Source of the DNA: Natrinema sp. CBA1119
Lineage (GTDB): Archaea; Halobacteriota; Halobacteria; Halobacteriales; Natrialbaceae
Direction of reading: 5' to 3'
DNA: 64,000 nt
Assembly (NCBI RefSeq): GCF_002572525.1
Contig: NZ_PDBS01000001.1
Location: 1,116,001 to 1,180,000 of the forward strand
Below are positions 3,864-44,308 of this stretch, in pieces; position 1 is the stretch's first letter, and every line of letters starts with the position of its first letter. Under the pieces are notes generated by a model. It made no database searches. It was given only the letters and a program-made list of their open reading frames with translations, and was not told where the DNA came from. The position numbers and the translations under genes were made by a program.

Positions 3864-6800
3864 CGCACAGCAGTTCGGTCAGTTCCTGCTCACCCAGACC
3901 ATAGATCGTGTATCTGGTCGTGCCCTCCCCTACTGTGTCGGCGAGCGCCCCGAAGATTCCTACTACCTCTCTAGTCTGGCTCCTGAATACGGTATAGACA
4001 GAGACGAGGATTTCGAGGCGAAAACCAGGCCCGTAAGTCACGGAATCGAGTTCAAACCGATCGCCGGGTCAACCGGGACCGTTAAGATCTCCTTCGACTT
4101 GTACTACCCGAGCTTTCCCACCTACGAGGAATTTGAGGCGCTTAGGACCAACGGCGTTCAAGCGGCGAAATTGGAAGTTGCAGACCGTGAGGACATCGAG
4201 ATCGATGACGTTGACATTGATGATATCTCTACGGACGCGTTGTTCTCCTTCGAGGAGATGTTTTACCGGCGCTTTACAGTCGACTACGAGTACAAAGGGA
4301 AGTTATCGGACATTCCCGCAGCGGCTTCAACCATCGAATCAGAGCTTCAAGCAGCCGTACGGGAGGCGTTCGCAGCCCACGCTAAGACCTATCTTGTGAC
4401 GGCCGATCCGGTGGCGGGCGCCGGCTTGAATCGCTCCCCACGGGAATTGCTTGAGTTCGATGAAGCAGCCTTCGAGGAACTCAAGAATCAGGTATCAACC
4501 GTACCGCTCGGCGAATACGAGTGGGGACTGGGATTTACGACATCCGAGACGGACGGCCAACTAACCCTGGAGCTAGTCAATCGGCCCCTCAGCGAGACGG
4601 CAGGCGATGGGAACGATGATCCCTTTGTATTCAACCCCAAGATCGCCGTGGAAGGACGTTTCGAGCCCTATACTTTCGAATTAGTGCCCGCTGACTACCG
4701 ATACGATCAGCAGGTGTGGGCCAAGGGCCACAACTGTTCGACGACAACTAGTGAGGGGGATCCACCAACGCGGCTCGAAACGACGGCGACGCCGAGCGAG
4801 CCCGTCTACGAATTCGCGTTTAACAGCGACTACAATACGGACTTCGCTGATCTCACTGACGAGGCGACGCTCCAGACCCTAGAGGACATCGCAGAGGGTA
4901 TGGCCGACTACCACGAGACCTGGGCGACGAGACGTCGAGCCGAGTTGATCGATGAGATGGAGCTCACCGACGAGGAAGCCCAAGAACTTGATAAGGCCGC
5001 TGCAGACTTCAAACAAGAGCTCAAGCGTTTCGAACACGGGATCGAGATCCTTCATCGAGATGAACAGGCCCTCACGGCTTTCCGCGCTATGAACCAAGTG
5101 AACGCGGACCAATATGACTTCCCTGGCTGGCGGTTGTTCCAGCTGGTCTTTATCGTCTGTAATCTCTCAGGGATCGTGCGTCGCGAACACGAGTGGGCGG
5201 CGACGGACTACGACGAGGCAGCCGATGTGCTGTGGTTCCCAACTGGCGGAGGTAAGACCGAAGCGTACCTCGGACTGATCCTGTTCAATCTGTTCTATGA
5301 CCGCCAGCGTGGCAAACAAAAGGGCGTCACCGCCTGGATCCGTTTCCCACTCCGGCTACTGAGCCGCCAGCAGAAGGACCGTTTCCTCCAGAGTCTCCTG
5401 TATGCCGAGCAACTTCGACGGAAACCGGAGTGGTTCGACGGGGCCGGTGAGGAATTCTCGCTAGGGTTTTATGTCGGGGGACAAGACACGCCCAACGCGA
5501 TCGGGACCGATCGCGATACGCTCCGGCAGGCGTTCCAGCAAAGCCAGGACAAGCTCGAACGCGAGTGCAAGGTACTGGATGAGTGCCCGGTCTGTGAGAG
5601 TTCGATCGACGTGGAATACGACGTCGAGAAAAACAGCGTGTTCCATCACTGTACCGGTCCGGACTGTTTCGACCGGCTGCCGCTATACGTGGTTGATCGG
5701 GACATCTATCGCTACATTCCCTCGGTGTTGCTTGGCTCCCTCGACAAAATATCTGTCATGGGCATGCAGCCCCGCTTTACCAACCTGATCGGGAACGTAA
5801 CAACCTACTGTCCGGACCACGGCTATGGCTACTCGGGGAGCTGTTCGGAGAAAGATCTCTTTGACTGTGCAGGCAAACTTCAGGAGGCTAATTCGTTCTA
5901 TGACCCCGTCCCGACACTTCATCTTATCGACGAAGTACACTTGCTGAGCGAGGAGCTGGGGACGTTCGCCTCTCACTACGAAACGACATACCTCTCACTG
6001 TGTGAGTTGCTCTACGGGAAGACCCCCAAGATCGTGACTTCGACTGCGACGATTTCGGAATACGAGCGCCAGATCCGGAACCTCTTCCAGCGGGATGCCG
6101 TCCGGTTTCCCAATGACGGCCCCGTTCAAGGGGAGACCTTCTACGGCCACCTAACCAAGACGGTCGAACGGGAGTACATCGGGATGATGCCCTCCAACCG
6201 GTCGCATCTCTACGCTGTGCTGGACACGGTGGCAGATATCCATCAGATTATTCGGGATATGCGAACGATGTCGGTCGATGATCTCAGGGCCGCTACCGGG
6301 ATCGAATCACTCACCGAACAACGCAAAGCGGAGCTGCTAGATCTGTATGAGACATCGCTGGTCTACTTCAATAACAAAACGCGGAAGGACCGCTACCGAG
6401 AGAACATCGCGAAGTACGTGAATCCGAAGCTCAAGCGCGATGGCTACGAGGACCCGCTGATCGAACGCCAACTTACGGCTGACACCGAAAACCCCGAATT
6501 TCTCGAGCAGTTGGAGAACCCCGAAGGGATTGACTTCAAGGATCGTATTGACACGGTCCCCTCAACCAGCTTCATCGGCCACGGGATCGACGTTGATCGG
6601 TTTAACCTTATGCTCTTTTTCGGGTATCCGCGCCAGACGTTCCAGTACATCCAATCCAGTAGCCGGGTCGGTCGCCAATCCGACGTGCCGGGGTTTGTGC
6701 TGGACATCTTTGATCCAATCAAAAACCGGGACAAGCATCGGTTCCGCTACTTCGAGAAGATGCACCAGTACCTCAATCGGACTGTCGAGCCCGTCCCTAT

Positions 6801-7257
6801 CGATCGCTGGGCCAAATTCGGCATCGAACGGACTTTCCTAGGAGTATTCAATAGCATTTTCCTGCAGTACTACCGTCCAGCGATGTTCCGCAAGTACGAG
6901 CTTACCATTGATGGAGAGACCGATCGGGCTAACGTCCAGAAGGCATCACATCTCTATCATCTTATGACAAACGATGACTACCCAGAACTCACCGAAGCGA
7001 ACCTGATCGAACTCGTCAAGCGCGCGTATGGCCTCGATCGAGATGGCAGCTCAAACGAATACTTCGAAGATCAGATCGAACACCGCGTCCGCCAGGTCTG
7101 GACCTACTGGAAGGCGAATCTCAGTAGTATGCAATACCCAGAGTTCCCGGCAGGCGAAGAGCCGATGCAAAACCTTCGGGACATCGGCGATCAGGGGACG
7201 ATCACGCCTGACTACAACAATCAGAACTTCATCAAAGGCCTCACGGAGGGGAACTGA
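3853..7257 (+). CDS. drmA: DrmA, DISARM SNF2/SF2-type helicase
   Basis: ATP-dependent helicase/translocase core of DISARM, thought to act on incoming phage DNA together with DrmB. Walker A is WFPTGGGKTEAYLG, near residue 460. Walker B is LHLIDEVHLL, near 690. Motif III is TSTATISEY, near 730. Motif VI lies in SSRVGRQSDVPG, near 940, preceded by SFIGHGIDVDRFN. Between the two lobes is a Cys-rich insertion (CPVCESSID...HHCTGPDC, near 580-605) that could bind zinc. The first 440 residues are a family-specific N-terminal region. At 1134 aa it is in the normal size range. It overlaps the preceding gene and is followed after 2 nt by drmB, so the three form one translational unit. High confidence in the helicase, high in DrmA given the DUF1998 partner. 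Confidence 0.88.
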   Translation: MSSDAQQFGQFLLTQTIDRVSGRALPYCVGERPEDSYYLSSLAPEYGIDRDEDFEAKTRPVSHGIEFKPIAGSTGTVKISFDLYYPSFPTYEEFEALRTNGVQAAKLEVADREDIEIDDVDIDDISTDALFSFEEMFYRRFTVDYEYKGKLSDIPAAASTIESELQAAVREAFAAHAKTYLVTADPVAGAGLNRSPRELLEFDEAAFEELKNQVSTVPLGEYEWGLGFTTSETDGQLTLELVNRPLSETAGDGNDDPFVFNPKIAVEGRFEPYTFELVPADYRYDQQVWAKGHNCSTTTSEGDPPTRLETTATPSEPVYEFAFNSDYNTDFADLTDEATLQTLEDIAEGMADYHETWATRRRAELIDEMELTDEEAQELDKAAADFKQELKRFEHGIEILHRDEQALTAFRAMNQVNADQYDFPGWRLFQLVFIVCNLSGIVRREHEWAATDYDEAADVLWFPTGGGKTEAYLGLILFNLFYDRQRGKQKGVTAWIRFPLRLLSRQQKDRFLQSLLYAEQLRRKPEWFDGAGEEFSLGFYVGGQDTPNAIGTDRDTLRQAFQQSQDKLERECKVLDECPVCESSIDVEYDVEKNSVFHHCTGPDCFDRLPLYVVDRDIYRYIPSVLLGSLDKISVMGMQPRFTNLIGNVTTYCPDHGYGYSGSCSEKDLFDCAGKLQEANSFYDPVPTLHLIDEVHLLSEELGTFASHYETTYLSLCELLYGKTPKIVTSTATISEYERQIRNLFQRDAVRFPNDGPVQGETFYGHLTKTVEREYIGMMPSNRSHLYAVLDTVADIHQIIRDMRTMSVDDLRAATGIESLTEQRKAELLDLYETSLVYFNNKTRKDRYRENIAKYVNPKLKRDGYEDPLIERQLTADTENPEFLEQLENPEGIDFKDRIDTVPSTSFIGHGIDVDRFNLMLFFGYPRQTFQYIQSSSRVGRQSDVPGFVLDIFDPIKNRDKHRFRYFEKMHQYLNRTVEPVPIDRWAKFGIERTFLGVFNSIFLQYYRPAMFRKYELTIDGETDRANVQKASHLYHLMTNDDYPELTEANLIELVKRAYGLDRDGSSNEYFEDQIEHRVRQVWTYWKANLSSMQYPEFPAGEEPMQNLRDIGDQGTITPDYNNQNFIKGLTEGN

Positions 7258-34848: not shown

Positions 34849-35463
34849 CTACTGCTCGCCGCACTCGCAGGCACCAGTTTCGAGCAGCGTAGCGACATCG
34901 TACTGTCGGCCACAGTCCTCACAGAGGACCTGCAGGTCGGCGAGAACACGGTATGAACCGAGTTGCAGATGGTCAGTATCCCGCAGTCGAGCGAGTTTGC
35001 TTTCGGTCACGGCGACCGTCCGCTGTCGGAGGCCCTCGATCGTTTTGGACTCCGACTCTCGAGCGTCTTCGTCGGTTTCCGGGAGCGACGCGTCCCGGTG
35101 ACCCGTGAGATACGATCGGATCGCGCCGTAGGAGACGAACTCCGCTCGAACCGTCTCGACGTCGACCCCCGCTCGCTCGAGTCGCCGTCTGGCCGCAGTT
35201 TGCTCGCCGCGACTCCCCTCGGTTCCATCGAGAAGGGTGTACAGGCGGCTGACATCGTCGGTGATTGTCTCGACGTCGGCATCGTCGAGTGCGGCCCGAA
35301 GGATTCGTTCGTTGAATGATTCGGCGAGCGCTCGCAGACTCGTTCGGTTCTCGGGATGGGTCCACCGTGCCTCGAGTTCGTCGCCGACGCCCTCGAGGTC
35401 GTATTTCCGGATGAGGCGCAGAACTTTCGGATCCGGTCCGGGCCCTGTCGGCTGATGGTTCAT
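34849..35463 (-). CDS. rdfA: Rod-determining factor RdfA family protein
   Basis: 204 aa. Matches the haloarchaeal RdfA family: N-terminal KVLRLIRKYDLEGVGDELEA, SLRALAESFNERILRAALDD, AARRRLERAGVDVETVRAEF and a C-terminal zinc-knuckle-like end, VLCEDCGRQYDV...GACECG. In Haloferax volcanii one member is needed for rod shape; many haloarchaea carry several paralogues, so this copy need not be the shape regulator. The zinc ligands are inferred from the four cysteines. Confidence 0.85.
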   Translation of the reverse strand: MNHQPTGPGPDPKVLRLIRKYDLEGVGDELEARWTHPENRTSLRALAESFNERILRAALDDADVETITDDVSRLYTLLDGTEGSRGEQTAARRRLERAGVDVETVRAEFVSYGAIRSYLTGHRDASLPETDEDARESESKTIEGLRQRTVAVTESKLARLRDTDHLQLGSYRVLADLQVLCEDCGRQYDVATLLETGACECGEQ

Positions 35464-35710: not shown

Positions 35711-36475
35711 TCAGCCGTACGCGAGCGTGATCCTGATCTCGCCCGCCTTATCCCGAAGCCGGGTCGGGAGCTCATCGTGAACGTAGTCGTCCGTAAATCG
35801 GCTCGTCGGTCCGAAAACGGCCAGCGATCCGAGGAACTCGTCGTCGGGCGTATAGACGGGAACGGAGACACCGCGGAGTCCGTCCATGTGTTCCTGATTG
35901 TTCACTGCGTACTCCCGATCACGGATCCGCTCGAGTTCGTCGAACAGCGCGTCGGGATCGGTGATCGTATTCGACGTGATCGCCTCGAGTCCCACCTCCT
36001 CGATGTAGCGGTCGACTGCGGCGTCGTCCCACTCTGCGAGAATGATCTTGCCCGAGGCCATCGAGTGGAGCGGTCGCCGGTGGCCGATCATCGTGTTCGA
36101 GAGGCTGCCGTAGCGGTGGACGTAGACGGCCTCGTCGTCCTCTTCGACGATGAATACCGCTCGTTCGTCGGTCTCCTGACCGAGTTCGAACACCGCTCGT
36201 TTGGCGGCCGTGTAACCCACTTTCCGGGAACGGGCCTGCTCGCCGAGTTCGACGAACCGGAAGCCAACGTAATACTTCCCGTCGCGCTCGATCACGTAGC
36301 CCATGTCGGTGAGCGTCTGCAGGTGACGGTAGACGGTACTCTTGGGGAGGTCGGTCCGCTGCGTGAGAGCCGCAATCGTGACCCCTTCCTCGGCTTTGAG
36401 CGCCTCGAGGAGTTCGAACGTCTTTCGCGTCGTCGAGACGCCGACGGTCTCGGTCTCGTCCCGATCCGTATTCAT
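35711..36475 (-). CDS. IclR-family transcriptional regulator
   Basis: 254 aa. N-terminal winged helix (TTRKTFELLEALKAEEGVTI, LTQRTDLPKSTVYRHLQTLT) and C-terminal effector domain (GHRRPLHSMASGKIILAEWD, REYAVNNQEHMDGLRGVSVP). IclR proteins sense organic acids and often control adjacent catabolic genes. It lies 130 bp downstream of the acyl-CoA dehydrogenase on the same strand and at the head of a catabolic district that includes a TRAP transporter, so it may control these. The ATG at 36475 is the best start. Confidence 0.93.
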   Translation of the reverse strand: MNTDRDETETVGVSTTRKTFELLEALKAEEGVTIAALTQRTDLPKSTVYRHLQTLTDMGYVIERDGKYYVGFRFVELGEQARSRKVGYTAAKRAVFELGQETDERAVFIVEEDDEAVYVHRYGSLSNTMIGHRRPLHSMASGKIILAEWDDAAVDRYIEEVGLEAITSNTITDPDALFDELERIRDREYAVNNQEHMDGLRGVSVPVYTPDDEFLGSLAVFGPTSRFTDDYVHDELPTRLRDKAGEIRITLAYG

Positions 36476-36607
36476 ATCCGATACTGTTCGCACGTCGCAA
36501 TCAATGTTCCGGATACTGGGACAGAAGTGTTGGCAGGCGGGACGGTCGTCCCTGAATCCGAACTCAAGTCGGGAAAAAAGCGTGGTACGAATCGTCGGCT
36601 CGCGTCG

Positions 36608-37771
36608 CTACTGGTAGGCGGGGATACCGGTGAACTCCTCGCCGAGGACGAGCGTATGGATGTCGTGGGTTCCCTCGTAGGTGTAGACCGTCTCCATGTT
36701 GGCCATGTGGCGCATCGGCGAGTAGTCGGTGGTGATGCCGTTGCCGCCGATCATTTCGCGGGCGATCCGAGCCTGATCGCGTGCCGTGCGCACGTTGTTC
36801 CGCTTGGCCATCGAGACGTGCTGGGGTCGCATCTCGCCACGCTCTTTGAGTTCGGCGAGGCGGTGGGCCAGCAGCTGGGCCAGCGTGATCTGGGTGCCCA
36901 TCTCCGCGAGCTTGCGCTGTTGGAGCTGGAACCGGCCGATCGGACCGCCGAACTGGTCGCGGTCCTTGGCGTACTGACGGGCCTCCTCGAAGCAGTCTCG
37001 AGCAGCGCCGATTGCGCCCCAGGCGATGCCGTAGCGGGCCTGCGTGAGACAGGACAGCGGCCCCTTCATGCCCGAGACGCCGGGAAGAACGTTCTCCTCG
37101 GGGACGTGGACATCGTTCAGGCCAATCTCGCCCGTGATCGACGCACGCAGCGAGAGCTTCTCGGTGATCTTGTTCGTCGAGACGCCGTCGCGGTCGGTCT
37201 CGACCAGAAATCCGCGGACGGGGTCGTCCTCGGCCGACTTATCACGCGCCCAGACGATGGCGACATCGGCGATCGGCGAGTTCGTGATCCACGTCTTCGA
37301 GCCGTTCAGCACGTAGCCGTCACCGTCCGCCTCCGCGCGGGTCTCCATTGCCGACGGATTCGAGCCGTGTTCGGGCTCGGTGAGGCCGAAGCAGCCGATC
37401 GCATCGCCTTGCCCCATCGCCGGCAGCCACTCCTCCTTTTGCTCCTCGCTCCCGTAGGCCCGGATCGGGTACATGACGAGCGCCCCCTGGACCGACGCCA
37501 TCGAGCGCAGCCCCGAGTCGCCGGCCTCGAGTTCCTGCATCAGGAGCCCGTAAGCCGTCTCGGAGACGTTCGGCGAGCCATACCCCTCGAGATTGGGGGC
37601 GTAGAAGCCGAGTTCACCCATCTTCGTGATGAGCTCCTTCGGGAACGTCCCGTTCTCGAAGTGTTCGCCGATGTCGGGTTTGACGTGCTCTTCGACGAAC
37701 TCCCGGGCCGTGTCCCGGATCATCCGCTCTTCTTGGTCGAGGTCATCCTCGAGCTGAACGAAATCCAGCAT
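36608..37771 (-). CDS. Acyl-CoA dehydrogenase, glutaryl-CoA dehydrogenase type
   Basis: 387-aa FAD enzyme that dehydrogenates an acyl-CoA. Signatures: GCFGLTEPEHGSNPSAMETR (FAD/substrate region; the TEPEHGS form is typical of glutaryl-CoA dehydrogenases), LNGSKTWITNSPIADVAIVW, the Arg-rich helix RDQFGGPIGRFQLQQRKLAE, and near the C terminus METVYTYEGTHDIHTLVLG, which carries the catalytic Glu of YEGT. Closest in pattern to GcdH, but substrate is unproven. The longer frame to 37933 is not coding; ATG 37771 fits. Divergent from the TAXI gene across 245 bp. Confidence 0.88.
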   Translation of the reverse strand: MLDFVQLEDDLDQEERMIRDTAREFVEEHVKPDIGEHFENGTFPKELITKMGELGFYAPNLEGYGSPNVSETAYGLLMQELEAGDSGLRSMASVQGALVMYPIRAYGSEEQKEEWLPAMGQGDAIGCFGLTEPEHGSNPSAMETRAEADGDGYVLNGSKTWITNSPIADVAIVWARDKSAEDDPVRGFLVETDRDGVSTNKITEKLSLRASITGEIGLNDVHVPEENVLPGVSGMKGPLSCLTQARYGIAWGAIGAARDCFEEARQYAKDRDQFGGPIGRFQLQQRKLAEMGTQITLAQLLAHRLAELKERGEMRPQHVSMAKRNNVRTARDQARIAREMIGGNGITTDYSPMRHMANMETVYTYEGTHDIHTLVLGEEFTGIPAYQ

Positions 37772-37984: not shown

Positions 37985-37993
37985 ATTATAATA
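37985..37993 (+). promoter_or_regulatory. TATA box of the TAXI-TRAP operon
   Basis: ATTATAATA is centred about 27 nt before the ATG at 38016. This indicates a leaderless transcript and supports 38016 over the upstream ATG at 38001 as start. An AT-rich stretch (TGTATAATATATTGGG, near 37,947) just upstream may be part of the control region shared with the divergent dehydrogenase. Confidence 0.45.
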
Positions 37994-38015
37994 GGTAACT
38001 ATGAAGATGTTTGGC

Positions 38016-39089
38016 ATGGCGAAGAGAGACAAGTCCACGGATAGGCGTACCACTCGACGATCGATTCTCGCGACAGCAGGCGTCGGTTCCCTCGCGGCGA
38101 TCGCCGGTTGTATCGGCGGCGAGACGAGCGGCGGCAGCAACCAGAACCTCGAGACCCTGTCGGACATCAACGAGAACACGTCGGTGTCACCAACGCCGAG
38201 CGGCTCCGGGACCGCCCCGGCACTCGAGCGAGCGCTCGATCACGCGACCGACGGCTACGACCGCGTGAGTACCAGCTACGGCGAACAGGGCAACGCGATT
38301 AACGAGAACCAGCTCAACGTCGGCGTCGGGACGCTGATGAACTTCTCGATCACGCCCAGCTGGCTCCAGCAGACCGCGAGTACCGTCGACAACCTCCGCG
38401 TCCTCGACGTGACCGATGAGACCGAGCAGGCCTGGAACGACGACGATCGACTACTGATCCGGCCGGCCGAGACAGGGCAGATCGACAACGTCGACGCTCC
38501 CGACGAGGTTCCCGCGCCGACCTTCGCGTACAACTTCGTCTCCCGGGCCGACCTCGAGTACGACACGGTCTATACGTTCCTCGAGACGATGTACGAACAG
38601 CAACAGGAGCTAGCGGAGTACCACGGCCTGCTGGGAACCTACGAGGACGACGAGTTCTGGGTCAAGAACATGTACGACGGCGTCCCCTTCCACGACGCCG
38701 CGGCCGACTTCTACGAAGAAATCGGCGTCTGGAGCGACGAGTTCGAGCGCGCCGGCGGCAGTACGAGCGGCGGTGCGACCGGCGACACGGACGTCCGGAT
38801 GCGGACGTCGACGTCGACGACGACGGCCTACGCCGCGAACCAGGGGATGGCAAGCGCCGTCAACGAAGGGACCGACGATCTGTTCGTCGAGGCACAGACG
38901 AGTCAGGGCACCGAGGCGAACCTCGGTGCGCTCGACCAGAAGGACGCCGAGATGGTGTACATCCAGAACTGGTCGGCACAGCAGGTGCAAGAAGACGCCG
39001 GTAACTACAGCGAACTCGGCTTCGATATGGCACAGATCGTCCACTTCTACGACCTGCCGTGGTTCTTCATCGCTGACGGCGGTAACTAA
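38016..39089 (+). CDS. TAXI-type TRAP solute-binding lipoprotein with circularly permuted lobes
   Basis: Captures a substrate outside the cell for the TRAP permease encoded 8 bp downstream. 357 aa. Tat lipoprotein signal TDRRTTRRSILATAGVGSLA with lipobox ending in Cys32. After a linker, residues 50-240 are the segment that normally lies in the second half of a TAXI protein: SVSPTPSGSGTAPALERALD (the GSGT hinge), VSRADLEYDTVYTFLETMYE and YDGVPFHDAAADFYEEIGVW (normally the C terminus). Residues 259-357 are the segment that is normally N-terminal: RMRTSTSTTTAYAANQGMAS, TSQGTEANLGALDQ, and it stops at FIADGGN. Joining the C-terminal FIADGGN to the N-terminal QNLETLSDINENT would restore the usual order. 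Nothing seems missing; length is normal. TAXI membership is firm; permutation follows from family knowledge. Confidence 0.88.
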   Translation: MAKRDKSTDRRTTRRSILATAGVGSLAAIAGCIGGETSGGSNQNLETLSDINENTSVSPTPSGSGTAPALERALDHATDGYDRVSTSYGEQGNAINENQLNVGVGTLMNFSITPSWLQQTASTVDNLRVLDVTDETEQAWNDDDRLLIRPAETGQIDNVDAPDEVPAPTFAYNFVSRADLEYDTVYTFLETMYEQQQELAEYHGLLGTYEDDEFWVKNMYDGVPFHDAAADFYEEIGVWSDEFERAGGSTSGGATGDTDVRMRTSTSTTTAYAANQGMASAVNEGTDDLFVEAQTSQGTEANLGALDQKDAEMVYIQNWSAQQVQEDAGNYSELGFDMAQIVHFYDLPWFFIADGGN

Positions 39090-39097
39090 CGAAACCG

Positions 39098-41284
39098 ATG
39101 TCCGGAACATATTCCGACCGCGACCTTCCCGAGATAGCCCTCGGATTCGTCGTCTACGCGTTGGGGTTCTCCCTGACACTGTACACCGTCACGTACGCCG
39201 TGTCTCTCGTGGGAGGGTGGCCCCTCAGTGGGCTCGTACCCGAACCCGGCTGGGTGAAGCGGGACAAGCTGTATATGATCCTCTTCCTCGGGCTCGGGCT
39301 CGGGCTGTATTATCTCGACTATGCCCGCAAGGAGTTCGCCGGCGAGAGCGGCGAATTCGGTATCGACGGGGCAGCGTCCTCGTCGACAACCGAGGAAGCC
39401 GCTGGGAGCGCACTCGAGCGGGCGCGGCGCACGTGGTCGAGGATCGATCCGTACGTTGCGCTCGCGTTCGCCATCGCGGCGCTGCTCACGATGTACTACG
39501 TCTACACGAATTTTACCCGGCTCGACGAGGACGCGTACATCCTCGGCTACACCACCACCGACCACGTCGTCGGCGTGATACTGATCGCGCTGGCGATCGA
39601 TACGACTCGCCGGGCGTTCGGGACGTCGATCGCAGCCGTCGCCGTCGCGGCGATCGCGTACGCCCACTCCGCGGTTGGCTCGCGGCTGTTTGGCGTCTTC
39701 GAGCACTCGGGGCAGAGCTGGGAGCAGATCGCCGAGAACGGCGCGATCGGACTCAGCGGCGTCTACGACGGAACGATGATGGGGATCGGCTCGACGTGGG
39801 TCGCGATCTTCATCATGTTCGCCGGGATCGCGAAGGCGTTCGGGCTGATGGAGTTCGTCCGCGAGGTCGGGACGGAACTCGGGCGGAGCCTCCGGACCGG
39901 CGTCGTCCAGATCGCCGTCATCTCGAGCATGATCATGGGTTCGATCACCGGCAGTGCGGCGGCCAACACCGCGACGACCGGCAGCTTCACCATCCCAATG
40001 ATCAAGGACCAGGGCGTCGACGACGATGTCGCCGCCTCGATCGAGGCGGTCGCCTCCGCGGGCGGCCAGATGCTGCCACCGGTAATGGGCGTCGCCGCGT
40101 TCCTGATGGCCGACATCATTCAGGTCCCGTATCTGGATATCGTCCAGGCGGGCGTCATTCCGGCGGCGCTGTTCTACTTCAGCGTCTGTCTCGCCATCCA
40201 CTTCACGATCCTCAAGTTCGGCTGGATCTCGAGCGACCTCTCGTCGTTCAAGTGGCGGCTCCTGCTCAAGGGAGTCCACTTCGCGGTCCCGATGGGCGTC
40301 CTCCTGTATACGCTCATCTATCTGCGGTACACACCGCTGTCGTCGGGGATGAACACTATCTTCGCGATCATCGGCGTGATGTTCGTTCGGAACTTCGTCG
40401 TCGGCGTCGTCGGCGTCGGCTCCGACGAAGTGGCGGCCAGTATCTTCGGACGGGAAATACGGGGCGGCGACCCGCTCGGGAACCTCGTGGCGACAACGAA
40501 ACAGACCCTCGATGGATTCAAGCAGGGCGGCGTCGACATGGCACCGCTGGTCGGCGTCCTCGCAGCCATGGGAATAATCGTCGAACTGCTCGAGGGGAGC
40601 GGGCTAACCGCGCGCGTCGCGACGTCGATCGTCAGCCTCGGCGACGTGAGCCTGCTCGGGTTCGGCGGCGGGCTGTTCGTCGTCCTGTTCCTCGCGATGA
40701 TCGCGAGCATTCTGTTCGGGCTGGGGATGCCGACGCCCGCGGCGTACATCCTCGTGGCCATCCTGGTCGCGAAACCGATCACCGAACTGGGGACCCCTGA
40801 CATCGCGACACATATGTTCGTGTTCTACTTCGCGATGCTGTCGGCGATCACGCCGCCGGTCGCGATCTCGGTCGCGATCGGGGCGCGCATCGCGGACGCG
40901 AGCTTCCTCCAGTCGTGTAAGCAGGCGCTCCGGCTCGGTGCGCCCGGGTTCGTTATCCCCTACGCGTTCATCGCGAACGAGAGTCTGATCTACTGGTCGA
41001 GCGAGACGCTAGTCGCGTTCCCCGTCGTGCTGGCCGGCACCGTCGCCCTAATCGTGGCGGCAGTCGGGTTCGACGGCGCTCGCGATCTCTCCGCGCCGGT
41101 CCGCGGGCTCTACGTCATCGCCGCAATGGTCGCGATGTTCGGCTCGATCGGCCACGTCGCCGTCCAGATCGTCGCCGCGGCGGTCATCGTCGCTACGCTG
41201 TTGCACGCCCGCTTTGTCGTCGGCTACGACCTGCCGAGCGGGAGCGGCACCGACTCCGGCGTCGATCCGACGACGCTCGACTGA
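39098..41284 (+). CDS. TRAP transporter fused permease (DctQ-DctM type)
   Basis: 728-aa membrane protein with both small (4-helix) and large (12-helix) TRAP subunits, as in TAXI systems. The first 120 residues contain two hydrophobic stretches and an acidic Ser-rich loop. The core has GSITGSAAANTATTGSFTIP (near 285), the hallmark of the large subunit, followed by VEAVASAGGQMLPPVMGVAA-like sequence and a repeat GMPTPAAYILVAILVAKPIT near 545. It drives sodium- or proton-coupled uptake, likely of an organic acid. Forms an operon with the binding protein. Confidence 0.93.
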   Translation: MSGTYSDRDLPEIALGFVVYALGFSLTLYTVTYAVSLVGGWPLSGLVPEPGWVKRDKLYMILFLGLGLGLYYLDYARKEFAGESGEFGIDGAASSSTTEEAAGSALERARRTWSRIDPYVALAFAIAALLTMYYVYTNFTRLDEDAYILGYTTTDHVVGVILIALAIDTTRRAFGTSIAAVAVAAIAYAHSAVGSRLFGVFEHSGQSWEQIAENGAIGLSGVYDGTMMGIGSTWVAIFIMFAGIAKAFGLMEFVREVGTELGRSLRTGVVQIAVISSMIMGSITGSAAANTATTGSFTIPMIKDQGVDDDVAASIEAVASAGGQMLPPVMGVAAFLMADIIQVPYLDIVQAGVIPAALFYFSVCLAIHFTILKFGWISSDLSSFKWRLLLKGVHFAVPMGVLLYTLIYLRYTPLSSGMNTIFAIIGVMFVRNFVVGVVGVGSDEVAASIFGREIRGGDPLGNLVATTKQTLDGFKQGGVDMAPLVGVLAAMGIIVELLEGSGLTARVATSIVSLGDVSLLGFGGGLFVVLFLAMIASILFGLGMPTPAAYILVAILVAKPITELGTPDIATHMFVFYFAMLSAITPPVAISVAIGARIADASFLQSCKQALRLGAPGFVIPYAFIANESLIYWSSETLVAFPVVLAGTVALIVAAVGFDGARDLSAPVRGLYVIAAMVAMFGSIGHVAVQIVAAAVIVATLLHARFVVGYDLPSGSGTDSGVDPTTLD

Positions 41285-41392
41285 GGCCGGCCTCGTCGAC
41301 GGGGCGGTCCACTCCGTCTCTCGGACAACGGAAATGAATCCGCCCAGCGAGTAACAATCCTTTTGAATCCCCCTGACAACAATACGCAGGGT

Positions 41393-43003
41393 ATGACAAA
41401 TCTCGTGACGGACGTCGCCGAGACCGTCGAGGAACATCCGGACTCGGCCGCGATCGCGTATGAGGGGACGGAACTGAGCTACGAGGAGTTCTGGGAGCGA
41501 ACCGGCCAGTTCGCGCAGGCCCTCGAGGACCGCGGGATCGGCGAGGGCGACCGCGTCGGGATCTACCTGCCGAACCTGCCGCAGTTCGTCACGGCCTTTT
41601 ACGGCACCCTGCGCGCCGGCGGGATCATCGTTCCGATGAATCCCCAGTACAAGGCTCGAGAGATCAGCCACATGCTCGGCGACAGCGGGGCCAAAGCCGT
41701 CGTCGCGCTGGCCGATCTCGTTCCGAACGTCCTCGAGGTCCAGGATGACACCGAGGTCGAACAGGTGATCAGCGTGGGTGCGGACGTCGAGGGGGCCACC
41801 GAGTTCGACGACTTCCTCGCCGACGAGACGAAGGACATCGTCGACCGCGCAGACGACGACATCGCGGTCCAGCCCTACACGTCGGGGACCACCGGTACGC
41901 CAAAGGGCGTCCTCCTCACGCATCACAACATCGGCTGGACGACGCGAGCGAACGCGGACGTCCCGCCAGGCGGGTTTCAGGCCTCCGACCGGCTCGTCGG
42001 TACCCTGCCCCTGTTTCACATCTACGGCATGTCCGTCGTCATGAACGGCGCGATGTACAGCGGCGGCACCTACTACCCCGTCTCCGAGTGGGATGCCCCG
42101 ACCGTGATGGACCTCCTCGAGGATGAAAACATCACGATCATGTTCGGCGTGCCGGCGATGTTCAACGACATGATCAACCAACCCGACGCCGAGAGCTACG
42201 AGTTCGAGGCGCTTCGCTTCGTCAACTCCGGCGGCTCGAGCCTGCCGATCGAGGTCTTAGAGCGCTTCGAGGAGCTGTGGGGCGTCGAGCTCTACGAGGG
42301 GTACGGGCTGACCGAGACGAGCCCGGTCACCCACGCCAACCGCGGGGACGCTCGCCGGAAGGGGAGTATCGGCCGGCCGCTCGAGGGCGTCGAGTCGAAG
42401 ATCGTCGATAGCGCGGAACGAAGTTCCGCTGACCATTCGGGCGGCGACGAGCCGCCCGAAGACGAGGTGTTCGAGGAAGTTCCCCGCGTCGAAGAAGGGC
42501 CGATCGACGAGGAGGAGGCCGCGATCCACGATATCACGGGCGAGCTCGTCATCCACGGCCCCAACGTGATGAAAGAGTACTACGGACTGCCCGAGGCTAA
42601 CGACGAGGCCTTCACGTACGAGAACGGCAAGCGCTGGTTCCACACCGGCGACATCGGCTACTGGGACGAGGACGACTTCTTCTACGTCGTCGACCGCGAG
42701 AAGCACATGATCGTCACCGGCGGCTACAACGTCTATCCGCGCGAAGTCGAGGAGCTCCTCTTCGAGCACCCCGACGTAGCCGACGCCGCCGTCGTCGGGA
42801 TCCCGGACGAGCGCCGCGGCGAGACCGTGAAAGCGTTCATCGTCCCGACTCCCGACGCCGAGGCGACCCCCGAGGACATCAAGCAGTACTGCCTCGAGAA
42901 CCTCGCGGAGTACAAACACCCCCGTGAGGTCGAGTTCGTCGAGGAACTCCCGCGGACGACGACCGGCAAGGTCCAGAAGTTCGAACTCCGCGACGAGTCG
43001 TAG
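41393..43003 (+). CDS. Long-chain fatty-acid-CoA ligase family protein with palindromic insert
   Basis: Activates a carboxylic acid to its CoA ester via an acyl-AMP. 536 aa. Motifs: P-loop YTSGTTGTPKGVLLTHHNIG (near 162), VELYEGYGLTETSPVTHANR (near 300), KRWFHTGDIGYWDEDDFFYV (near 412) and C-terminal catalytic lysine in PRTTTGKVQKFEL. Between KIVD and ITGELVIHG it has an acidic stretch of about 35 residues where most family members have about 10; half of it is encoded by two perfect palindromes (42413-42460). The ATG at 41393 is preferred to the TTG at 41363. Likely serves the substrate brought in by the TRAP system or fatty acids. Confidence 0.92.
   Translation: MTNLVTDVAETVEEHPDSAAIAYEGTELSYEEFWERTGQFAQALEDRGIGEGDRVGIYLPNLPQFVTAFYGTLRAGGIIVPMNPQYKAREISHMLGDSGAKAVVALADLVPNVLEVQDDTEVEQVISVGADVEGATEFDDFLADETKDIVDRADDDIAVQPYTSGTTGTPKGVLLTHHNIGWTTRANADVPPGGFQASDRLVGTLPLFHIYGMSVVMNGAMYSGGTYYPVSEWDAPTVMDLLEDENITIMFGVPAMFNDMINQPDAESYEFEALRFVNSGGSSLPIEVLERFEELWGVELYEGYGLTETSPVTHANRGDARRKGSIGRPLEGVESKIVDSAERSSADHSGGDEPPEDEVFEEVPRVEEGPIDEEEAAIHDITGELVIHGPNVMKEYYGLPEANDEAFTYENGKRWFHTGDIGYWDEDDFFYVVDREKHMIVTGGYNVYPREVEELLFEHPDVADAAVVGIPDERRGETVKAFIVPTPDAEATPEDIKQYCLENLAEYKHPREVEFVEELPRTTTGKVQKFELRDES
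42413..42460 (+). repeat. Two adjacent palindromes inserted in frame in a CDS
   Basis: GCGGAAC-GAA-GTTCCGC (42413-42429; 7-bp stem, 3-nt loop) and TTCGGGCGGC-GACGA-GCCGCCCGAA (42436-42460; 10-bp stem, 5-nt loop), 6 nt apart. They encode AERSSADHSGGDEPPED in a surface loop of the ligase. The first has the same stem/3-nt-loop plan as the hairpins near tRNA-Gly. Confidence 0.8.
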
Positions 43004-43168: not shown

Positions 43169-44308
43169 ATGGCATTCACCCTGTCCGACGAACACGAGGC
43201 GATTCGCGACGCCGTCCGCGAGTTCGGCGAAAACGAGATGGTACCGGTCGCCGAGGAACATGACCAGGAAGGGAAGTACCCCGAGGAACTCCGCAAGAAG
43301 GCCGCCGAGTACGACTTCGTCGCACCGAGTATCCCGCTCGAGTACGGCGGTGCCGGGATGGACAAGATCGCCAGCACCATCGTCACCGAGGAACTCTGGC
43401 GTGCCGACCCGGGAATCGGTTCGGCCATCGGGAGTGCCGGCTTCGGCTCGAACATGATCATCGAGTTCGGCGACGAGTGGATGAAAGAGGAGTGGCTCCC
43501 CAAGATCGCAAACGGCGAGATTGCGTCCGTGTCCATGATCTCCGAGCCCGCCCACGGCTCGAACGTGGCCGGCATCGAGACGCAGGCCGACAAGGACGGC
43601 GACGAGTACGTCGCCAACGGCAACAAGATGTGGATCACCAACGGGACCGTCGCCGACGTCGGCGTCCTCATGGCCAAGACGAACCCCGGCGAGGGCCACC
43701 GCGGCATCACCGCCTTCCTCGTCGACATGGACTGGGATGGCATCAAGACCGAGAAGATCGACAACAAACTCGGTATCCGCGCCTCCGACCTCGCCGAAGT
43801 CATCATCGACGACGTTCGCATCCCCGAGGAGAACGTCATCGGCGAAGTCGACAAGGGCTTCTATCAGTTGATGGAGTTCTTCGCCGCCGGCCGGACTAAC
43901 GTCGCCGCCCAGGCAGTCGGTGCCGCCCAGGGTGCGCTCGACGCCGCTATCGAGTACGCCAACCAGCGCGAGCAGTTCGACCAGAAGATCTCCGAGTTTC
44001 AGGCCATCCAGCACAAGATCGCCGAGATGGCCACCAAGGTCGAGGCCGCCCGCTCGCTGACGTATCGTGCGGCGACCCAGGTCGAGCAGGAGAACCAGGA
44101 CATCGCCGCGCAGTACTCGAGCATGGCGAAGTACTTCGCGAGCGAGATTTCGGTCGAAGTCGCCGACGAGGGCATTCAGGTCCACGGTGGCTCGGGCTAC
44201 GTGACGGACTACCCCGCCGAACGCTACTACCGCGACGCCCGCATCACGAAGATCTACGAGGGTACCAGCGAGATCCAGAAGAACATCATCGCCGACCAGA
44301 TTCTGTAA
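43169..44308 (+). CDS. Acyl-CoA dehydrogenase
   Basis: 379-aa FAD enzyme, short- or medium-chain type. Signatures: SVSMISEPAHGSNVAGIETQ (near 115), VANGNKMWITNGTVADVGVL, and the C-terminal IQVHGGSGYVTDYPAERYYR and KIYEGTSEIQKNIIADQIL, where the YEGTSEIQ Glu is the usual catalytic base. Electrons pass to ETF. It follows the CoA ligase by 165 bp on the same strand and precedes a convergent thiolase, so these steps of beta-oxidation cluster. Confidence 0.93.
   Translation: MAFTLSDEHEAIRDAVREFGENEMVPVAEEHDQEGKYPEELRKKAAEYDFVAPSIPLEYGGAGMDKIASTIVTEELWRADPGIGSAIGSAGFGSNMIIEFGDEWMKEEWLPKIANGEIASVSMISEPAHGSNVAGIETQADKDGDEYVANGNKMWITNGTVADVGVLMAKTNPGEGHRGITAFLVDMDWDGIKTEKIDNKLGIRASDLAEVIIDDVRIPEENVIGEVDKGFYQLMEFFAAGRTNVAAQAVGAAQGALDAAIEYANQREQFDQKISEFQAIQHKIAEMATKVEAARSLTYRAATQVEQENQDIAAQYSSMAKYFASEISVEVADEGIQVHGGSGYVTDYPAERYYRDARITKIYEGTSEIQKNIIADQIL

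Follow-up and report, generated by a model that had tools for sequence, protein, structure and literature searches.

An open reading frame that translates into 357 amino acids (38016..39089, plus strand) lies within the window, i.e., the whole stretch of 64,000 nucleotides that was analysed. Its product is a circularly permuted lipoprotein of the TAXI family of TRAP solute-binding proteins; the segments run signal-M-C-linker-N, as against N-M-C (NMC) in normal-order orthologues and paralogues. The gene is followed by its partner, a TRAP fused permease (4TM-12TM; 39098..41284, plus strand; TIGR02123, 395.5 bits against a cut-off of 320.65), and by an AMP-forming acyl-CoA ligase (41363..43003, plus strand; PF00501, 4e-97) and an acyl-CoA dehydrogenase family protein (AcadB; 43169..44308, plus strand; PF00441/PF02771). 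Upstream lie a divergent glutaryl-CoA dehydrogenase-like gene (AcadA; 36608..37768, minus strand; phmmer matches to PDB 2eba, 5e-129, and 1siq, 3e-126) and an IclR-family regulator (35711..36493, minus strand; PF01614/PF09339), which holds the same place in the conserved operon slot of relatives. The flanking dehydrogenases and CoA ligase suggest, as far as gene content can, that the operon may take up a glutarate-like acid and degrade it through CoA-dependent steps. Glutamate and similar acids are the ligands of the TAXI proteins characterised to date (PMC11574862); the present ligand is probably a dicarboxylate such as glutarate, a supported guess for which there are no binding or transport data. 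Adjoining the operon is a gene for rod-determining factor A (RdfA; 34849-35463, minus strand; PF21811, 5.6e-71), whose position beside the IclR gene is conserved in many relatives.

A second in-frame ATG is located upstream of the assigned start, at 38001. A leaderless start at 38016 is favoured over it, by inference only, from a TATA-like box (TTATAATA; 37986..37993, plus strand) about 27 nt upstream of the ATG. This element is consistent with a leaderless haloarchaeal promoter, although its role as a promoter is likewise inferred; a TTATAAT/A element at similar spacing precedes both permuted genes (L021, L022, L043, and L048) and normal-order genes (L025, L026, and L027). The translated protein begins with a Tat-type lipoprotein signal (TRRS...) up to the lipobox cysteine (AGC, Cys32; 38016..38111, plus strand), and alignment with the signals of permuted and normal orthologues places it in its ancestral position. 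Thus, the Tat signal did not move to a new N terminus, as the initial annotation had inferred; it stayed with the promoter and the lipobox, and the mature segments were reordered behind it.

Past the lipobox, a Gly/Ser-rich spacer (residues 33-44; 38112..38147, plus strand) runs straight into segment M (residues 45-80, LETLSDI...SPTPSGSGT...; 38148..38255, plus strand), the start of lobe 2, which in normal-order proteins is preceded by segment N. Segment C follows (residues 81-246, YDRVS...DEFERA; 38256..38753, plus strand) and completes lobe 2, carrying also hinge strand 2 and the native C terminus. An internal linker (GGSTSGGATGDTD; residues 247-259; 38754..38792, plus strand) then bridges the native C and N termini, and segment N (residues 260-357, VRMRTS...YIQNW...HFYDLPWFFIADGGN; 38793..39086, plus strand) closes the chain with lobe 1 and hinge strand 1, which form the mature N terminus of normal proteins. 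The stop codon (39087..39089, plus strand) stands 8 nt before the permease ATG, and the ACCGATGTC motif found there is common to normal-order loci. The order of parts proposed in the initial annotation is retained with adjusted limits: the C-terminal part of the family spans about residues 45-246, the linker 247-259, and the N-terminal part, as matched, 260-354; of the stretch QNLETLSDIN, once read as the natural continuation, LETLSDI does open segment M, and the leading QN belongs to the linker.

These limits were set with three segment HMMs built from normal-order proteins. The N model extends from the mature start to the end of hinge strand 1 (...DLPWFF), the M model covers LETLSDI...GSGT..., and the C model runs from Y[DEN]R[VIA]S... 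to the native C terminus. Each of the 51 genes with all three segments carries them in one of three cyclic orders (NMC in 35, MCN in 10, the window gene included, and CNM in six), so that every cyclic order of the three segments exists. General family profiles place the C-terminal part of the family first in the window protein. Residues 42-237 match profile positions 100-289 of Pfam NMT1_3 (PF16868) in two stretches (E 6.5e-19; 69.1 bits against a cut-off of 27), and residues 56-237 match positions 143-320 of NCBIfam TIGR02122 with 57.2 bits, under the cut-off of 84.35, as is expected when the chain order is broken. The split is not a property of the Pfam model, since normal-order orthologues match PF16868 in a single stretch, from position 2-3 to 287-289 of 289. 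Weak phmmer matches to solved TAXI proteins in the PDB are exchanged in the same manner, with query 165-238 falling on chain positions 239-312 and query 266-321 on 26-82. The claim that the family's C-terminal part comes first and its N-terminal segment last is therefore borne out by Pfam, NCBIfam, phmmer, and the ten genomes that share this order. A linear order of lobe 1a, lobe 2, and lobe 1b is among the criteria for the family, and the window protein (M-C-N) does not meet it; sequence comparison and the tree place it in the TAXI family by descent, with its order changed. A circular permutation requires that both segments be homologous to one unpermuted protein in exchanged order, and this holds, with normal orthologues at 59-75% identity. 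The junction of the native termini through a linker is read in the window sequence itself, whereas the fold is only predicted.

The MCN order occurs in ten genomes of Natrinema and Natrialba (74-99% identity, separate assemblies): besides the window, in eight other Natrinema genomes (83-99%) and in Natrialba taiwanensis (74%). In other Natrinema and in related genera, the corresponding operon slot holds normal-order orthologues; those of Natrinema share 59-73% identity with the window protein, so both orders exist within one genus. This supports circular permutation of a TAXI protein as first proposed, and the outcome that would have refuted it, close relatives all sharing this order and an unrelated fold, is contradicted by relatives in both orders within the same sequence family. 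MCN and normal genes have the same neighbours: upstream, in divergent orientation, the IclR regulator and the glutaryl-CoA dehydrogenase-like gene; downstream, the TRAP fused permease, the AMP-forming ligase, and the acyl-CoA dehydrogenase. Conservation extends to the promoter-like sequence and to the distance from the stop codon to the permease start, 6-9 nt in loci of both orders. These shared features indicate that the permutation arose, or was inserted, in the orthologous slot.

A second cut point, about 36 residues further on, gives the order signal-spacer-C-linker-N-M (CNM). Through a contiguous match, this form was found in five other Natrialbaceae genomes (L058, L059, L060, L062, and L063); four of the five loci have the same flanking genes, and the fifth (L107) lacks a match to the upstream dehydrogenase. 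In Natrarchaeobaculum sulfurireducens, the CNM operon resides on plasmids of two strains from different lakes. One of these plasmids (NZ_CP027032.1, L132) carries the CNM form at 5944-7047 with an IS6 transposase nearby. The plasmid-borne form is annotated merely as a 'substrate-binding domain-containing protein'; together with the score of the window protein below the curated TAXI cut-off, this points to a blind spot in annotation. A junction-profile search of 391 haloarchaeal genomes yielded one further permuted gene, in genome G387, which belongs to another family and again has the order CNM (L086); it sits in a different operon, beside a TPP enzyme and an F420 oxidoreductase. The corresponding region of G387 (L102, 6496-13328) contains this third permuted TAXI-TRAP pair between an SDR, an F420-dependent oxidoreductase, and a benzoylformate-decarboxylase-like TPP enzyme, an arrangement unlike the other permuted loci. 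When a generic artificial junction probe was run against the 391 genomes for permutation in other TAXI subfamilies, only the same permuted genes matched.

The junctions bear on how the new orders came about. The internal linkers (GGSTSGGATGDTD and its counterparts) look like relics of the post-lipobox spacer, a resemblance judged from sequence. For example, the internal SGSGGSGETTVRMRTS of the permuted L022 resembles the N-terminal SGDGGSGETTVRMRTS of the normal L057, and the CNM junction FERADEP-DDTLEVDTIRMKTS, in which the native C-terminal DEP is retained, resembles QETLESVQNVDTIRMKTS of the normal-order L099. Spacer-like linkers lend indirect support to in-frame tandem duplication followed by trimming. 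Such a duplication would have begun in the spacer and ended with the last sense codon, so that the native C terminus of one copy was followed by the post-lipobox spacer of the next. For MCN, trimming would then have cost the first copy its N and the second its M-C; for CNM, the first would have lost N-M and the second C. In either case, the signal, the gene downstream, and a remnant of the spacer would have stayed in place. The alternative that survives best replaces duplication with gene fission and fusion, with cutting and pasting of a segment, or with excision and reinsertion of a circular piece. The clean ends of the genes, with the same short distance to the permease in permuted and normal loci, are compatible with these routes, and no fused-dimer or half-trimmed intermediate was found in the 391 haloarchaeal genomes. 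On the other hand, spacer-like linkers in both forms are what tandem duplication directly predicts, and no split genes were seen, though no dedicated search was made for them. We consider such routes unlikely without being able to set them aside. The tandem duplication and loss put forward in the initial annotation is thus still the most likely origin, with the relic spacer at the junction in its favour, but it remains an inference as long as no intermediate is found.

The number of events was addressed with a binding-protein tree built on reordered segments (51 rows, 300 columns). The MCN proteins are monophyletic (support 100/98) inside a 17-row clade (99/94) with normal Natrinema proteins and their allies. 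Five CNM rows group at 100/100 with their normal-order sister L099, and the permuted gene of G387 falls among normal-order genes, although its exact place is weak (83/41). The fewest order changes on this tree are three. The C-segment tree alone agrees with the full tree; the N segment alone, with 94 columns, is not long enough for a resolved tree, and L099 falls within CNM there. AU tests reject a single clade of all CNM rows (p-AU 1.5e-72) and of all permuted rows (p-AU 1.6e-38), and one origin for all permuted forms was rejected on these tests. Two independent permutation events are firm, and three are the most likely count. Conceivably, MCN and CNM could still descend from one ancient tandem-fused ancestor trimmed differently in each lineage. 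Both forms do share the same type of fusion, from native C terminus to spacer, and a long-lived N-M-C-N-M-C protein would account for several cut points. However, normal-order genes such as L099 stand between the permuted clades, both single-clade topologies are rejected, reversion to normal order would be needed repeatedly, and L086 has a different operon context; a common fused ancestor is accordingly improbable.

The permease tree is concordant with the binding-protein clades and gives the same three changes, whereas the dehydrogenase tree is discordant, with MCN loci mixed among NMC loci and Natrialba taiwanensis grouped with other Natrialba. From this disagreement it follows that binding protein and permease move together as a cassette through conserved flanks. 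Overall, we hold it to be very probable that the window gene encodes a Tat-exported, lipid-anchored TAXI-TRAP binding protein, permuted in place, with a single MCN origin and subsequent cassette spread; the route by duplication and trimming and the acidic ligand are inferred parts of this account. On this reading, the MCN change happened once, in the ancestor of the MCN clade, after which the binding-protein and permease pair passed between genomes. As separate observations, the pair at window positions 38016-41284 and those at L048, L027, and L052 behave as a cassette exchanged between genera; Natrialba taiwanensis has a Natrinema-type MCN pair, and one Natrinema genome (G015) has a Natrialba-type normal pair.

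Selection appears to have maintained the permuted forms. MCN proteins keep 92-93 of the 94 residues invariant in 21 normal orthologues, pairwise NG86 dN/dS is 0.10-0.20 within MCN and 0.07-0.13 for CNM pairs, and reading frames are intact in 16/16 permuted genes. AlphaFold2 gave a confident two-lobe fold for the window protein (MCN: pLDDT 91.3, pTM 0.88; CNM: pLDDT 92.1, pTM 0.87). Low confidence is confined mainly to the spacer (pLDDT <50, mature residues 1-10) and a dip at the MCN internal linker. The hinge strands of the MCN model are E134-146 in segment C and E307-323 in segment N, the latter (residues 307-323 of the mature chain) being the last strand and ending three residues before the C terminus. 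The alignment consisted of permuted rows and fragments of normal rows placed on the permuted query, and no normal-order control was modelled; part of the confidence therefore comes from fragments of relatives laid onto that query. A Foldseek search of the PDB returned type II binding proteins with partial scores, the best query-length TM among the listed hits being 0.42 (MCN) and 0.34 (CNM). Low full-length values are expected of a sequential aligner on a reordered chain, so this search cannot serve as positive proof and showed only the absence of a full-length sequential match. In the preferred reading, the two lobes would continue to close around an acidic ligand and pass it to the fused permease encoded by the next gene; function is apparently kept, although no transport, binding, or expression data are available. 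Decay into non-functional genes of a redundant operon could be imagined, given paralogous TAXI genes elsewhere in the same genome, but it is very hard to reconcile with the low dN/dS, the intact frames, the near-complete retention of invariant residues, and co-inheritance with the permease; no clade-wide stop codons or relaxed selection were seen, and pseudogenes are ruled out. Assembly error or a chimeric gene in a single genome can be discounted with near certainty, as separate assemblies agree on the swapped order in ten MCN genomes and the second cut point in six, permuted genes also lie on single-contig chromosomes (G011) and on the plasmids of the two Natrarchaeobaculum strains, and nothing was found in favour of the rearrangement artefact considered earlier.

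The structure of VcGluP allows the cut points to be related to lobe anatomy. Its hinge strands span residues 116-131 and 255-267, domain 1 comprises 29-115 and 268-328, and domain 2 comprises 132-254 (PMC11574862). By similarity, the MCN cut lies at the transition from hinge strand 1 to domain 2. Both lobes are sequence-continuous in MCN. The CNM chain inverts the normal situation, with an unbroken lobe 1 and a lobe 2 made of two stretches. Both forms carry the lipid anchor on lobe 2 rather than lobe 1, and any effects of this tether are inferred. It is possible, although we rate it as doubtful, that haloarchaeal TAXI proteins were repeatedly driven to permutation because loading or release at the TRAP permease works better with the anchor on lobe 2 than on lobe 1; the selective reason is inferred. 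If true, chain topology would have evolved convergently, in no fewer than two and probably three independent events; at both of the cut points used, the new chain begins in lobe 2.

Several known systems share features with this family. Like the TAXI proteins of Cluster F, VcGluP (8s4j) and TTHA1157 (1us4/1us5), the window protein belongs to the same sequence family, is an exported binding protein encoded beside a fused TRAP permease, and is predicted to have two lobes with two long hinge strands, the Gln of its YIQNW motif aligning with the ligand-binding region. However, these proteins run N-M-C, whereas the window protein runs M-C-N, has its tether on lobe 2, and scores below the NCBIfam TAXI cut-off. 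The closest precedent for a permuted binding protein is TpMglB-2 (Tp0684) of Treponema pallidum ('Type Ic/Cluster Bc'), a lipid-anchored solute-binding protein with a natural permutation, whose authors proposed that tethering may favour the new topology (PMC4990184). TpMglB-2 is a Type I/Cluster B sugar (glucose) protein of an ABC transporter, and its permuted part, with ~13% identity to E. coli MglB, is too diverged for its origin to be traced (PMC4990184). The window protein does not meet the homology criterion for the MglB type (Type I) and is analogous to TpMglB-2 without being a member of its group. Compared with that precedent, what is new is a different family (TAXI/Cluster F) in which permutation is traceable and repeated, with orthologues in both orders at 59-75% identity and two cut points. 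Swaposins and permuted DNA methyltransferases are textbook natural permutations explained by duplication and trimming (PMC3320104), but they belong to other families; in the present case, the signal peptide and spacer are fixed and the junction retains a relic. TAXI-GltS BP0403 of Bordetella pertussis is also a TAXI lipoprotein of unusual architecture around the tether, but this consists of extra N-terminal domains and a dimerising helical region, and no permutation is mentioned (PMC12344293). A literature search with little coverage of subscription journals found no paper on a permuted TRAP/TAXI binding protein, and nothing relevant on recurrent permutation or haloarchaeal TAXI proteins. The relic spacer at the junction, the CNM form, the third event in another family, and the exchange of binding-protein/permease cassettes extend what was first noted for this locus.

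Natural circular permutations usually come to light only after the sequences have diverged too far to reveal how and why they arose. In this family, permuted and unpermuted orthologues still share 59-75% identity and are found in the same slot, even within one genus, which makes the origin of permutations in DNA testable. Differences of permuted forms in binding, closing, or docking become testable as well, as does whether membrane tethering selects new termini, as suggested for TpMglB-2. The family thus offers a rare opportunity to study chain-order change in proteins.

Further variation was observed around the same operon slot. In other Natrinema genomes (L028-L033), it holds a third, more distant transporter type in normal order (TAXI ~45% identity, permease 44-52%). 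Another genome carries two tandem TAXI-permease cassettes within the slot (G062, L116, 5066-11458), and in G102 a normal-order TAXI gene (L115, 7535-8466) is apparently frameshifted, with its parts in two reading frames.
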